From: Anaerolineales bacterium
Lineage (GTDB): Bacteria > Chloroflexota > Anaerolineae > Anaerolineales > DRMV01
DNA: 33,163 nt
Direction: 5' to 3'
Assembly: GCA_026985995.1 (NCBI GenBank)
Contig: JALSPJ010000170.1
Span: forward strand, 1 to 33,163
Below, one piece after another: positions 25,878 through 33,163 of the stretch; position 1 is the first letter of the stretch, and each line of letters starts with the position of its first letter. The notes beneath the pieces were generated by a model, which saw only the letters and a list, made by a program, of their open reading frames with translations, ran no database searches and was not told the origin of the DNA. Position numbers and translations under genes: made by a program.

Positions 25878-25894
25878 TGTTCCAACTTGAAACA
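25878..25894 (+). promoter_or_regulatory. Putative distal operator (17-bp near-palindrome)
   Basis: TGTTCCA-ACT-TGAAACA; one mismatch from a perfect 7-3-7 palindrome; 15/17 identical to 25910-25926. Confidence 0.65.
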
Positions 25895-25909
25895 CATGCC
25901 GCAAGTTTG

Positions 25910-25926
25910 TGTTTCATCTTGAAACA
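25910..25926 (+). promoter_or_regulatory. Putative proximal operator (17-bp palindrome)
   Basis: TGTTTCA-TCT-TGAAACA, perfect 7-bp inverted repeat, 32 bp centre-to-centre from the distal site. Confidence 0.7.
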
Positions 25927-25942
25927 TAATACGGCCTGGGTG

Positions 25943-25971
25943 TTGACCCCCAGCCAGGTTTAGCCTACGAT
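25943..25971 (+). promoter_or_regulatory. Putative sigma70-type promoter of the glycerol operon
   Basis: TTGACC - 17 bp - TACGAT. Confidence 0.5.
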
Positions 25972-26071: not shown

Positions 26072-26869
26072 ATGAAGCCCAAAAGTTTGACCGGCGAACT
26101 GTTGGCCGAGGCCTTCGGCACTTTCATCCTCATTCTGCTGGGCGATGGTGTGGTGGCCAATGTGGGCCTGGCGCCGCGCCTGGCCCCTCCGGGCTATGAC
26201 TGGAACACCATCGTCTGGGGCTGGGCCTTCGCGGTGGTGGTGGCCGTGTATGTGGCCGGCGGCGTCTCGGGCGCGCACATCAACCCGGCCGTGACCATCG
26301 CCCTGGCCGCGACCAAGCGCTTCGAGTGGTCCAAGGTGCTGCCCTTCATCGTCGCCCAGGTCATCGGCGCGTTCTTGGGCGCGCTGGGCGTGTATCTGGT
26401 CTATCGTGAGGGCCTGGTCGCCGCGGGGATGCCCAATGTGTGGTGCACGGGCCCGGGCTCGGTATTTGGCCAGACTTTCTGGGGCGCGGCCACCACGGGC
26501 GAAGCCGTGGGCGCGTATTCCTTCGGCAACGCGTTCATCGCCGAAATTTTCGGCACCGCCACCCTGCTGTGGGGCGTGCTGGCCATGACCGACGAGGACA
26601 ACCTGGCCCCCCAAAGCAACCTGGCGCCCTTGCTCATCGGCTTCGTGGTGCTGGCCGTGGGCCTCTCCTTGGGCGGCCCCTCGGGCTATGCCATCAACCC
26701 GGCCCGTGACTTCGGCCCCCGGGTGTTCGGCGCGCTGGTGGGCACCCAGGGCCTGTTCGATGGCGCGTATTGGTTCGGCCCGCCCGTGCTGGGCGCCATC
26801 ATCGGCGGCGTGCTGGGCGCGTTTTCCTACGACTGGCTCATCAAGCCCTTCTTGAGCAAGAAGGCGTGA
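26072..26869 (+). CDS. glpF: MIP/aquaporin-family glycerol uptake facilitator
   Basis: AEAFGTFILILLGDG, SGAHINPAVTIALA (NPA), GYAINPARDFGPR (NPA with GlpF-type NPARD). RBS AAAAAGGAG. Confidence 0.95.
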   Translation: MKPKSLTGELLAEAFGTFILILLGDGVVANVGLAPRLAPPGYDWNTIVWGWAFAVVVAVYVAGGVSGAHINPAVTIALAATKRFEWSKVLPFIVAQVIGAFLGALGVYLVYREGLVAAGMPNVWCTGPGSVFGQTFWGAATTGEAVGAYSFGNAFIAEIFGTATLLWGVLAMTDEDNLAPQSNLAPLLIGFVVLAVGLSLGGPSGYAINPARDFGPRVFGALVGTQGLFDGAYWFGPPVLGAIIGGVLGAFSYDWLIKPFLSKKA

Positions 26870-26896: not shown

Positions 26897-27970
26897 ATGA
26901 AAAAACTGATTAATTCCCCCGAAACCTTCGTCAAAGAAAGCCTGGAGGGGATGGCCTTAGCCCACCCGGACCTGGTCAAAGTGCACTTCGACCCCAACTT
27001 CGTCTATCGGGCCGATGCGCCCGTGGCGGGCAAAGTGGCCGTCATCTCCGGCGGCGGCAGTGGGCACGAACCCATGCACGGCGGCTTCGTGGGCCGCGGC
27101 ATGTTGGACGCGGCCTGCCCCGGCGAGGTGTTCACTTCCCCCACGCCCGACCAAATGCTCGAGGCCGCGCGCACGGTCAACAGCGGCGCGGGGGTGCTCT
27201 TCCTGGTGAAGAACTACAGCGGCGATGTGATGAACTTCGAGATGGCCGCGGACCTGGCCCGAGCCGAGGGCATTCGGGTGCTCAACATCCTCATCGACGA
27301 CGATGTGGCCGTCAAGGACAGCCTCTACACCCAGGGCCGTCGCGGCACCGGCACCACGGTGCTGGCCGAAAAAATCGTCGGCGCGGCCGCGGAGCGGGGC
27401 TATGACCTCAAGCGCCTGGCCGACCTGGCCCGCCGGGTCAACATCAACGGTCGCAGCATGGGCATGGCCCTCACTTCGTGCACGGTCCCGGCCAAGGGTA
27501 CGCCCACCTTCGAGCTGGGCGAGAACGAAATCGAAATCGGCATCGGCATCCACGGCGAGCCGGGCCGCGAGCGCATCCCCTGGAAGCCGGCCGACGAAAT
27601 CACCGAAATGCTGGCCCTGTCCATCATCGAAGACCCGGCCTACACCCGCACCGTGCGGGAATTCGACGAAGAGAAGGGCGAATGGGTCGATGTGGAGCTC
27701 ACGGACCCGCCCTTCCAACCCGGCGACCGGGTGATTGCCATGGTCAACGGCATGGGCGGCACCCCCATCGCCGAGCTGTATGTGGTCTATCGCAAGCTGC
27801 ATTTCATCGCCGAGGCCAAGGGCCTCAAGATTGTGCGCAACCTGGTGGGCAACTACATCACCTCCCTGGAAATGCAGGGCGTGATGATTACCTTGTTGCG
27901 CGTCGACGATGAGATGATTGAACTGTGGGATGACCCTGTGCACACGCCCGCCCTGCGCTGGGGCGTGTAA
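26897..27970 (+). CDS. dhaK: Dihydroxyacetone kinase subunit DhaK
   Basis: [66 protein letters not shown] (substrate-binding His), [26 protein letters not shown]. Confidence 0.96.
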
Positions 27971-28071: not shown

Positions 28072-28707
28072 TTGCAAACGCTCACTCGTGACCACATCGT
28101 GCGTTGGATTACCCATGCGGCCGAGGTCCTGGAGGCCAACAAGGAGTACCTCACCCAACTGGACGCGGCCATTGGCGACGCGGACCACGGCATCAACATG
28201 GACCGGGGCTTCAAGAAGGTCCTGAGCCAGTTGCCGTCGGTGCAAGACAAAGACATCGGCACCATCCTCAAGACCGTGGGCATGGCGTTGATTTCCAGTG
28301 TCGGCGGCGCGGGTGGGCCCCTCTACGGCACGCTGTTCATGCGCGCCGGCATGGCCGTGGGTTCCAAATATGAACTCACCCCCGACGATTTGGTGGCCAT
28401 GTGGCGCGCCGCGGTCGAAGGCGTCATTCAGCGCGGCCGGGCCCAGCTGGGCGACAAGACCATGGTCGACGCGCTGCTGCCCGCAGTGGATGCCATGCAA
28501 AAGGCCCTGGAACAAGGCGGCGACATCGTGGCCATTTTGCAGGCCGGCGTGGCCGCGGCCGAAAAAGGACGCGACGCTACCATCCCCTTGGTGGCCCGCA
28601 AAGGCCGCGCCAGCTATTTGGGCGAGCGCAGTGCCGGTCACCTGGACCCGGGCGCGACCTCTTCTCATTTGCTGCTCAAGACCCTGTTGGATGTGGTGAC
28701 CGAATAA
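28072..28707 (+). CDS. dhaL: Dihydroxyacetone kinase subunit DhaL
   Basis: TTG start after GGAGGAGATAAA; LDAAIGDADHGINMDRGFKKV, GGAGGPLYGTLFMRAG, ATIPLVARKGRASYLGERSAGHLDPGATSSHLLL. Confidence 0.94.
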   Translation: MQTLTRDHIVRWITHAAEVLEANKEYLTQLDAAIGDADHGINMDRGFKKVLSQLPSVQDKDIGTILKTVGMALISSVGGAGGPLYGTLFMRAGMAVGSKYELTPDDLVAMWRAAVEGVIQRGRAQLGDKTMVDALLPAVDAMQKALEQGGDIVAILQAGVAAAEKGRDATIPLVARKGRASYLGERSAGHLDPGATSSHLLLKTLLDVVTE

Positions 28708-28752: not shown

Positions 28753-30264
<1,512 letters not shown>

Positions 30265-30436: not shown

Positions 30437-31597
30437 ATGTCGGCCTATCATGTGGTCATCATCGGCGGCGGCGCGACGGGCGCGGCCCTGGCCCACGATT
30501 TGACCCTGCGCGGGGTGCAGGTCACTTTGGTGGAACGCGGCGAGGTGACTTCGGGCACGACCGGCCGGCATCACGGCCTGCTGCACAGCGGCGCGCGCTA
30601 CGCGGTCAAAGACCCCGAATCGGCCCGGGAATGCATCCAGGAAAACACCATCCTGCGCCGCATCGCGCCCGGTTCCTTCGAGCTCAACGATGGCCTGTTC
30701 GTGGCCATCACCGATGAAGACCTGGCCTATTACGACGATTTCATGGAAGGCTGCGCGGCCACGGGCATCCCCACCCGCACCCTGAGCCGGGAAGAAGCCC
30801 TGCGTTTAGAGCCCAACCTCAACCCGGACCTCAAACTGGCGGTGCAGGTGCCCGATGGCACCATGGACGCCATGCGCCTGCCGCTGCGCTTCCTGGCCAC
30901 GGCCAAACACAACGGCGCGCGCATTCTGCCCTTCCACCGGGTGACCGGGCTGCGCTTTCACGGTCGCACCGTGGTAGGCGTGCAGGGCCGCGATTTGGTC
31001 CGCAACCGCGATTTCACCCTCGACGCGGACCTGGTGGTCAACGCGGCCGGGCCCTGGGCCGAACAAATCGCCCGCATGGCCGATGTGGATGTGCCCGTGG
31101 TGCCCTCGCCGGGCGTGCTGGTGGCCGTGTATGGCCGCTGGACCAACATGGTCATCAACCGCCTGCACCGGGCCGGCGACGGCGACATCGTGGTGCCACA
31201 GCGCACCCTGTCGGTCATTGGCACCAGCTCCTGGGTGGTCGATGACCCCGACCATCTGGATGTGCCCGAGGAGCACATCCGCCTCATGTACGAAAAAGGC
31301 GCGGAGATGATTCCCGCGCTGGCCCACGCGCCCATGCGGGCCGCCTGGGCCGCCGCCCGGCCCCTGGTCGGTTCCCGCCAGGCCCAAAGCGGCCGGGAGC
31401 TCAGCCGCACTTTCAAAGTCTTCGACCACGCGGAAGAAGGCGTGGAAGGCTTCGTGACCATCGTGGGTGGCAAAGCCACCACGGCCCGGGCCATGGCCGA
31501 AGTCACCGCGGACCTGGTGGTGCGCAAATTGGGCCTCGACGCACCTTGCCGCACCCGGGAAGTCGTGCTCTTGCCCCACACGGCTTATTACGCCTGA
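30437..31597 (+). CDS. glpA: FAD-dependent glycerol-3-phosphate dehydrogenase, GlpA-type catalytic subunit (short form)
   Basis: VVIIGGGATGAALAHDLTLRGVQVTLVERGEVTSGTTGRHHGLLHSGARYAVKDPESARECI, NAAGPWAEQIA, FVTIVGGKATTARAMAE. 386 aa, lacks an extended BFD-type C-terminal domain. Confidence 0.9.
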   Translation: MSAYHVVIIGGGATGAALAHDLTLRGVQVTLVERGEVTSGTTGRHHGLLHSGARYAVKDPESARECIQENTILRRIAPGSFELNDGLFVAITDEDLAYYDDFMEGCAATGIPTRTLSREEALRLEPNLNPDLKLAVQVPDGTMDAMRLPLRFLATAKHNGARILPFHRVTGLRFHGRTVVGVQGRDLVRNRDFTLDADLVVNAAGPWAEQIARMADVDVPVVPSPGVLVAVYGRWTNMVINRLHRAGDGDIVVPQRTLSVIGTSSWVVDDPDHLDVPEEHIRLMYEKGAEMIPALAHAPMRAAWAAARPLVGSRQAQSGRELSRTFKVFDHAEEGVEGFVTIVGGKATTARAMAEVTADLVVRKLGLDAPCRTREVVLLPHTAYYA

Positions 31598-31611: not shown

Positions 31612-32739
31612 ATGAGCACCGTCACCCTGCGTGTGTTCCGCTTCAAACAAGGCGACGCCGCGCCGCATTACGACACTTTCACCGTGACCGCGGGCCCGCG
31701 CACCACCGTGCTCGAAGCCCTGCAAGCCGTGCGCCGCGACCAGGACCCCAGCCTCATCCTGCGTCATTCGTGCCATCACGCTTCGTGCGGCACCTGCGGC
31801 ATGCGGGTCAACGGCCATGAAGTGCTGGCCTGCGTCACCCCTCTGGCCGACCTGGGCCCGGTGGTCACCGTCGAGCCGCTGCAAAACGCGCCCCTGGTGG
31901 CCGACCTGGTGGTCGACATGCACCCCTTTTACGCCACCTTCACCCAGGCCGGTATGCCCCTGGTGCGCACCAGCGACAATCTGGCCGGTTCCCACCCCGC
32001 GCCCGGCATCGAAACCCTCACCCGCTTCGAGAATTGCCTGGAATGCGGCCTGTGCCTTTCGGCTTGCCCTGTAGTCGCCACCGACCCCCTCTACTTGGGC
32101 CCCGCGGCCATGGCCGCAGCCTGGCGGGTGGTGCAGGAACCCCGGGGCGCGGACCCGGCCCAGGCGCTGGCCTGGGTGGACCAGGAGCACGGCTGCTGGC
32201 GCTGTCACCTGGCCTTCGAGTGTTCCACCGTGTGCCCCAACGATGTGCAGCCGGGGCAGGCCATCGCCGCGCTGCGCCAGCGCCTGGTGCAAGGGGAACC
32301 GGCTCCGCCGCGGCCGCGCCCCGCCGCGGCCGAACCCGCGCCTTCCCCCGCCCGGGCCGCGCGCCGCGGGCTGCGGGCCTGGTTCGACCCCCGGGGCCGG
32401 GATGTGGGCTATTGGGCCTTTGTGCTGCATCGGGTCACAGGCCTGGCGCTGGTGTTCTACCTGGTGTTGCACCTGTGGGTGCTGCGTTTGCTGGCCCGCG
32501 GGCCCCAGGCCTGGGACGATTTCATCGCCCTGGCCCGCAGCCCCTTGTTTCTGGCCTTGGATGGCGTGCTGCTGTTCGGCATCCTTTTCCACGGCTTGAA
32601 CGGGCTGCGGGTGGCCCTGGTGGGGCTGGGCCGGGGCGCGGCGCGGCACAAGGCCCTGTTCTGGGCCCTCATGGCCGTGCTGGTGGTCGCGCTGCTTGTG
32701 GGCGTGGCCGCGCTGGTGGCCGTGGTCCACGGGGCATAA
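31612..32739 (+). CDS. Fusion of SdhB/FrdB-type iron-sulfur subunit with SdhC-type cytochrome b subunit
   Basis: HSCHHASCGTCGMRVNGHEVLAC (2Fe-2S), CLECGLCLSACP (4Fe-4S), CWRCHLAFECSTVCP (third cluster), P/A-rich linker, then GYWAFVLHRVTGLALVFYLVLHLWVL...LFHGLNGLRVALVGLG (Sdh_cyt). Confidence 0.88.
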   Translation: MSTVTLRVFRFKQGDAAPHYDTFTVTAGPRTTVLEALQAVRRDQDPSLILRHSCHHASCGTCGMRVNGHEVLACVTPLADLGPVVTVEPLQNAPLVADLVVDMHPFYATFTQAGMPLVRTSDNLAGSHPAPGIETLTRFENCLECGLCLSACPVVATDPLYLGPAAMAAAWRVVQEPRGADPAQALAWVDQEHGCWRCHLAFECSTVCPNDVQPGQAIAALRQRLVQGEPAPPRPRPAAAEPAPSPARAARRGLRAWFDPRGRDVGYWAFVLHRVTGLALVFYLVLHLWVLRLLARGPQAWDDFIALARSPLFLALDGVLLFGILFHGLNGLRVALVGLGRGAARHKALFWALMAVLVVALLVGVAALVAVVHGA

Positions 32740-32751
32740 GGGAGGCGCGTC

Positions 32752-33099
32752 GTGAACCGCGATGCAGGCAAATTCTGGTGGTTGGTGCAGGCCTTTTCGG
32801 GCGTGGCCCTGGTGCTCCTGCTGGGTATGCACTTCATCGCCCAGCACTATGTCGCCCAGGGTGGCCTGCGCACTTATGCCGATGTAGTGGCTTATCTGGA
32901 CTCGCCCTGGGTGCTGGCCCTGGAAACGCTGTTTTTGGTGGTGGTGGCGGTGCACGCGGCCCTGGGTTTGCGGGCCGTGGCCCTCGATTTGGGCCTGGCC
33001 CGGGGCCAACAGCGCCTGGTCGATGGGGCCGTGGCCGGTTTCGCCCTGGCCGTGGTGTTTTACGGCCTGTGGCTCTTCACCCGTATCGGAGGCGGATGA
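32752..33099 (+). CDS. SdhD-type membrane anchor subunit
   Basis: GTG start 13 bp after the fusion gene; three TM helices with FSGVALVLLLGMHFIAQHY and VVAVHAALGLRAVALD (candidate heme/quinone His). Confidence 0.75.
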   Translation: MNRDAGKFWWLVQAFSGVALVLLLGMHFIAQHYVAQGGLRTYADVVAYLDSPWVLALETLFLVVVAVHAALGLRAVALDLGLARGQQRLVDGAVAGFALAVVFYGLWLFTRIGGG

Positions 33100-33100
33100 C

Positions 33101-33163
33101 ATGACTTCTTCGGGTTGGCTCAGCCCCGCGGCCGGGCGGCGCATTTTGACCGGCGTGTGGGTG
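33101..33163 (+). CDS. Unknown protein, 3' partial (runs off window)
   Basis: ATG 33101 after ATCGGAGGCGG; MTSSGWLSPAAGRRILTGVWV... too short to assign. Confidence 0.6.
   Translation, partial: MTSSGWLSPAAGRRILTGVWV

Follow-up and report, generated by a model that had tools for sequence, protein, structure and literature searches.

A complex of the glycerol-3-phosphate dehydrogenase subunit GlpA with the complex II subunits SdhB, SdhC and SdhD has been proposed, on the basis of gene order, for Thermofilum-related archaea such as T. pendens (PMC11962113, Commun Biol 2025). The same study states that canonical bacterial glpA co-occurs consistently with glpB and glpC. In the complex II Sdh2 of M. 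smegmatis (PDB 6lum), the residues that ligate the hemes have been identified (PMC7447783). Here, we describe a glycerol operon from a bacterium of the order Anaerolineales, contained in a contig of 33,163 nucleotides (the window), in which a GlpA-type enzyme is encoded next to SdhB, SdhC and SdhD, and SdhB and SdhC are joined into one polypeptide. Since the archaeal proposal came earlier, the new elements are the bacterial distribution of GlpA-SdhBCD and the B-C fusion. No publication on a bacterial GlpA-SdhBCD module or on an SdhB-SdhC fusion was found in a search that excluded most subscription literature, and this absence is no proof.

The operon is located on the forward strand, with the gene order glpF-like, dhaK, dhaL, glpK, truncated glpA, sdhB-sdhC, sdhD. 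The glpF-like gene (26072–26869) encodes an MIP channel, a glycerol channel or aqua-glyceroporin (Pfam MIP, E 7e-49; TIGR00861, 188 bits, cut-off 171). Its open reading frame is listed from 25970, and the probable start is the ATG at 26072, preceded by a ribosome-binding-like AAGGAG. The two dihydroxyacetone kinase subunits are encoded by dhaK (26897–27970; Dak1; TIGR02363, 474 bits) and dhaL (28072–28707; TIGR02365, 252 bits), both scoring above the cut-offs; the TTG start of dhaL is suggested by an upstream GGAGGAG. The glycerol kinase gene glpK (28753–30264; TIGR01311, 761 bits, cut-off 590) is followed by a truncated glpA (30437–31597), the fused gene (31612–32739), and sdhD (32752–33099), which starts with GTG and encodes a second membrane anchor of 115 residues (Sdh_cyt, E 2.5e-10). 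The next open reading frame (33101–33163, forward strand) is cut by the contig end and, judged by its relative in the congeneric genome G004, encodes a short hydrophobic protein. In G004 (locus L038, 1–1900), the sequence 3' of sdhD encodes this short hydrophobic protein, a methyltransferase-like protein, the match of which to the Erm family is weak and far below the cut-off, and DhaM, so that the operon there holds a complete PTS-type dihydroxyacetone kinase. Upstream of the glpF-like gene of the window, a perfect inverted repeat TGAAACACA-N11-TGTGTTTCA (25888–25916), followed by TTGAAACATAA, is positioned just ahead of a sigma-70-like promoter (25943–25971). This repeat is a possible operator for the glycerol genes.

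The fused gene runs from the ATG at 31612 to the stop codon at 32737–32739 and encodes 375 residues with no internal stops. The initial annotation had described it as one uninterrupted reading frame carrying the motifs of three iron-sulfur clusters, a Pro/Ala/Arg linker and a cytochrome b region, and all three quoted motifs are present. The predicted order of SdhB and SdhC domains was borne out by the domain search, which identified Fer2_3 (residues 5–107, E 5e-28), Fer4_8 (140–212, E 5e-10) and Sdh_cyt (265–364, E 5e-12) in Pfam, and dhsB (8–222) and succ_dehyd_cytB (265–363) in NCBIfam, both above the curated cut-offs. The protein is composed of an SdhB part with all 11 of the 11 cluster cysteines, a disordered linker of about 25 residues, and a three-helix SdhC part.

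The SdhB part (31612–32295, residues 1–228, supported by the Pfam and NCBIfam matches) combines the Fer2_3 domain with a dicluster domain and has SdhB and FrdB as its nearest solved relatives. The ligands are C54, C59, C62 and C74 for the 2Fe-2S cluster, C142, C145, C148 and C208 for the 4Fe-4S cluster, and C152, C198 and C204 for the 3Fe-4S cluster, with H199 adjoining a 3Fe-4S ligand. The cluster cysteines and H199 are invariant in 19 aligned relatives. The motif previously assigned to a third cluster comprises two 3Fe-4S ligands and the fourth 4Fe-4S ligand, as in ordinary SdhB. The Pro/Ala/Arg-rich linker (32296–32370, residues 229–253) evolves with near-neutral dN/dS and was modelled as disordered, with a pLDDT of about 30–35, in a prediction of the fusion alone that was weak overall (pLDDT 67.7, from 12 sequences). 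The SdhC part (32371–32739, residues 254–375) has the Sdh_cyt domain, three membrane helices and a bis-histidine pair, H287 and H327, predicted as heme ligands by alignment to 6lum; in profile comparison, its closest solved structure is 6lum_C (E 1e-21). The sdhD product is likewise formed by three helices, matches both 6lum_C and 6lum_D, and contains the predicted heme ligands H27 and H68, which are invariant in 15 relatives.

The flavoprotein encoded just upstream of the fused gene is of the GlpA type and not SdhA, in agreement with the initial annotation, which had suspected a non-native flavoprotein partner. GlpA is 386 residues long and consists of the DAO domain of an FAD-dependent glycerol-3-phosphate dehydrogenase catalytic subunit. 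It covers positions 1–378 of the 530 in model TIGR03377 and scores 463 bits, below the equivalog cut-off of 552.8, which fits its missing C-terminal domain. Fer2_BFD is absent from it and was detected in the full-length GlpA of genome G027, which served as a control. The protein is not part of a GlpABC complex of the usual kind, since the C-terminal BFD [2Fe-2S] domain is missing and no GlpB or GlpC scored above the cut-off in the own genome, which is 94% complete and contains a single GlpA match at E<=1e-40. In a search of 61 relatives, a GlpC above the cut-off was found in 11 genomes, and each of these also has a full-length GlpA above the cut-off. The residues R54, Y55, R308 and K346 of GlpA are invariant and align with residues of solved GlpD and GlpO; by reference to E. 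coli GlpD, we take them to be substrate-contacting positions. Gene order and exclusion suggest that GlpA and SdhB are in physical contact. In genome G002, glpA and the fused sdhB-sdhC are in frame with one stop between them, and a model of the corresponding read-through chain reached a pTM of 0.60 with an unusable interface.

Judged from sequence, the fused protein very probably serves a respiratory glycerol-3-phosphate:quinone oxidoreductase as the subunit that transfers electrons and anchors the enzyme in the membrane. Glycerol would enter through the channel and be phosphorylated by GlpK to glycerol-3-phosphate, which the truncated GlpA would oxidize to dihydroxyacetone phosphate on its FAD. 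From FAD, the electrons would travel along the [2Fe-2S], [4Fe-4S] and [3Fe-4S] clusters of SdhB to two b hemes, bound by SdhC and SdhD, before reaching a quinone, probably menaquinone. The four membrane histidines, H287 and H327 of the fusion and H27 and H68 of SdhD, are invariant and align exactly with the M. smegmatis Sdh2 ligands C47, C87, D65 and D107; two b hemes are therefore expected, as in the menaquinone-reducing diheme complex II. Both this electron path and the quinone type are predictions. The quinone site must differ from that of E. coli, because SdhC Ser27 and SdhD Tyr83, quinone-site residues of the E. coli enzyme, are not conserved here.

A named scan with an alignment of glp-type SdhB sequences identified 80 loci, most of them from Chloroflexota (Anaerolineae, Thermoflexales, Thermoflexus, Promineifilum), with some from Actinomycetota and one from Bacillota. 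The gene order glpA, sdhB, sdhC, sdhD is found in the window and its kin; in this genus, sdhB and sdhC are joined. GlpA is encoded directly upstream of SdhB in 74 of the 75 loci with at least 300 bases of upstream sequence, glpK lies further upstream in 54 of the 61 loci with 2.5 kb upstream, and SdhC is present in 65 of the 74 loci with 900 bases downstream. In a tree, the glp-type SdhBs are united in a single clade, separate from five canonical SdhBs that come from the same order (support 100/100). The fusion is limited to three of the 80 loci plus the window, representing this genus and one orphan gene (G009), and no further fused gene was found when 397 genomes from the class and 399 from the phylum were surveyed, in samples that overlap. 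The module is thus common and the fusion rare. No fused SdhBC was seen beside sdhA in the Chloroflexota genomes sampled, where the 61-genome search alone had the sensitivity to reach canonical SdhB. The orphan fused gene is located on a short contig without glpA (L010), with no sdhD seen beside it, and glpA of this genome is on another contig without sdhB (L182). In genome G027, one locus (L056, 2114–8638) contains a full-length glpA in addition to the module of truncated glpA and sdhBCD, and a GlpC above the cut-off is encoded just downstream on the same contig.

The membrane anchor is not universal, as about nine Chloroflexota loci belonging to one clade (L114, L118, L120, L121, L122, L127, L131, L136 and L138) keep glpA-sdhB without sdhC or sdhD nearby. 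Where enough DNA could be read, genes for an ApbA-like reductase and a PlsY-like protein follow in these loci. The quinone-site histidine of SdhB (H199) is replaced by arginine in five of the nine, in contrast to none of the 65 loci with SdhC; this is a hint only, because the affected loci belong to one clade. The anchor-less loci possibly encode a soluble derivative of the module that uses another electron acceptor.

Two other readings of the enzyme have to be considered. The fusion and SdhD could belong to an additional succinate dehydrogenase or fumarate reductase, with SdhA borrowed from a distant locus and the adjacency of glpA being incidental: the domains belong to the Sdh/Frd family, the best solved relatives are SdhB and FrdB, and the genome does encode an SdhA. 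However, this SdhA is the only one in the genome and is encoded at another site within a complete canonical sdhCDAB, which supplies it with its own SdhB, SdhC and SdhD, and the glp-type SdhBs are a distinct clade that adjoins glpA almost without exception. The flavoprotein next to the fused gene being GlpA, the locus does not encode a succinate dehydrogenase holoenzyme. Because the only SdhA has an operon of its own, we dropped the succinate dehydrogenase paralogue with a borrowed SdhA as the leading idea; among the alternatives that concern the enzyme it is marginally the less probable, and we regard it as very improbable. Little more probability attaches to a GlpA-like protein whose substrate is a different hydroxy acid or phosphate ester and whose electrons take the same complex II-like path. 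Substrates vary among DAO-superfamily enzymes, and the score of the window GlpA falls short of the equivalog cut-off, a shortfall that fits the missing domain; yet the neighbouring genes encode a glycerol-type channel, glycerol kinase and dihydroxyacetone kinase, and the four invariant GlpA residues align with those of GlpD and GlpO. Near the canonical sdhCDAB (L006, 1526–2434, reverse strand), we also observed a strongly repetitive stretch with a unit of about ...PPDGPARKPRPPAELA... in one frame.

The SdhB-SdhC fusion is real. The assembly is metagenomic and the linker is GC-rich, so that chance stops are rare in it, and a single frame might on these grounds be an assembly or sequencing artefact that joins two genes. 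Against this stand the independently assembled congeneric genomes G002 (82% identity) and G004 (81%), which contain the same uninterrupted frame, and G009 from another, neighbouring genus (56%), in which the fused gene has no stop either. The linkers of the three congeneric genes differ by whole codons only, with the frame kept and no stops. A frameshift or lost-stop artefact, including the sequencing error in the linker that would restore two reading frames, is thereby excluded in practice, and we give it a negligible probability. The dN/dS among the three congeneric genes is about 0.17–0.19 for SdhB, 0.23–0.46 for SdhC and 0.8–0.9 for the linker; purifying selection acts on SdhB and SdhC, and the linker diverges almost neutrally. 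SdhC might still be made separately, by internal initiation or by proteolysis in the linker, the fusion then having no structural consequence. A disordered, near-neutral linker could be cleaved, and a GTG is present near the linker start in two of the three congeneric genes. This GTG is, however, missing from G004, none of the three congeneric linkers contains an in-frame ATG, whereas unfused SdhC genes in relatives begin with a start codon of their own, and the AAGGGG at the linker start is not followed by a suitably placed start codon. We consider a separately made SdhC unlikely, if the least improbable of the alternatives, and prefer a single SdhB-SdhC chain.

The fusion most likely arose when the stop codon that separated neighbouring sdhB and sdhC genes was lost. 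In the near unfused relative L068, the two genes are in the same frame and separated by one stop, the loss of which would create the fusion. The fused genes of this genus fall into a single clade, and the G009 gene groups with unfused kin on well-supported branches. A single origin was considered; the tree calls for two changes on well-supported branches, yet an AU test does not reject a single clade of fused genes (p 0.115); two origins are thus likely but unproven. The initial annotation had proposed that the fusion compensates for a non-native partner, which is contradicted by more than 70 loci that pair the same GlpA with an unfused sdhB: the fusion is not needed for this pairing. The suggested benefit of a forced 1:1 stoichiometry adds little, because the subunits of complex II are already present at 1:1. 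The fusion is most likely a lineage variation and no requirement of the enzyme.

We think it probable that a class of respiratory glycerol-3-phosphate dehydrogenase not described before is widespread in bacteria. In this class, SdhB-SdhC-SdhD would be a portable electron-transfer module, its SdhA-family flavoprotein would have been replaced by a DAO-family GlpA that lacks an Fe-S domain of its own, and B and C would later have fused independently in two lineages. This points to an iron-sulfur and membrane half of complex II that may serve another dehydrogenase and is not tied to succinate. Such an enzyme would give bacteria without GlpBC a respiratory route for glycerol-3-phosphate. For GlpA-type enzymes at large, our data contradict the statement in PMC11962113 about bacterial glpA and glpBC. 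Genes of this kind are probably labelled by automatic annotation as subunits of succinate dehydrogenase, and such labels would mislead metabolic reconstructions of Chloroflexota and Actinomycetota. The fused B-C chain would offer a simple handle for purification of the complex.

The module described here resembles the Thermofilum GlpA-SdhBCD in gene order: sdhB, sdhC and sdhD come after the gene of a GlpA-type catalytic subunit, and glpBC is absent. It differs in being bacterial and widespread in Chloroflexota and Actinomycetota, in its association with glpK, dhaKL and a channel gene, and in the fusion of sdhB with sdhC. M. smegmatis Sdh2 (6lum, PMC7447783) shares with it the three Fe-S clusters, the two anchors and the four aligned heme-ligand histidines, whereas the flavoprotein here is a DAO-family GlpA instead of SdhA, and SdhB and SdhC are one chain. 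The Sulfolobus GlpA-CoxG pair (PMC11962113) also combines a GlpA-like enzyme lacking GlpB and GlpC with an unrelated partner as membrane attachment; CoxG, however, anchors only, in contrast to the full Fe-S and heme relay of the partner here. The anaerobic glycerol-3-phosphate dehydrogenase GlpABC has a homologous catalytic GlpA and, as expected here, reduces menaquinone, whereas the present module has no C-terminal BFD [2Fe-2S] domain and no GlpB, and SdhB-SdhC-SdhD replaces GlpC. The TfrB subunit of the methanogen CoM/CoB fumarate reductase, the model of which (PRK06259) matches the SdhB part of the fusion, likewise contains SdhB within a fusion protein, but there SdhB is fused to an HdrB-like domain and not to a cytochrome b subunit.
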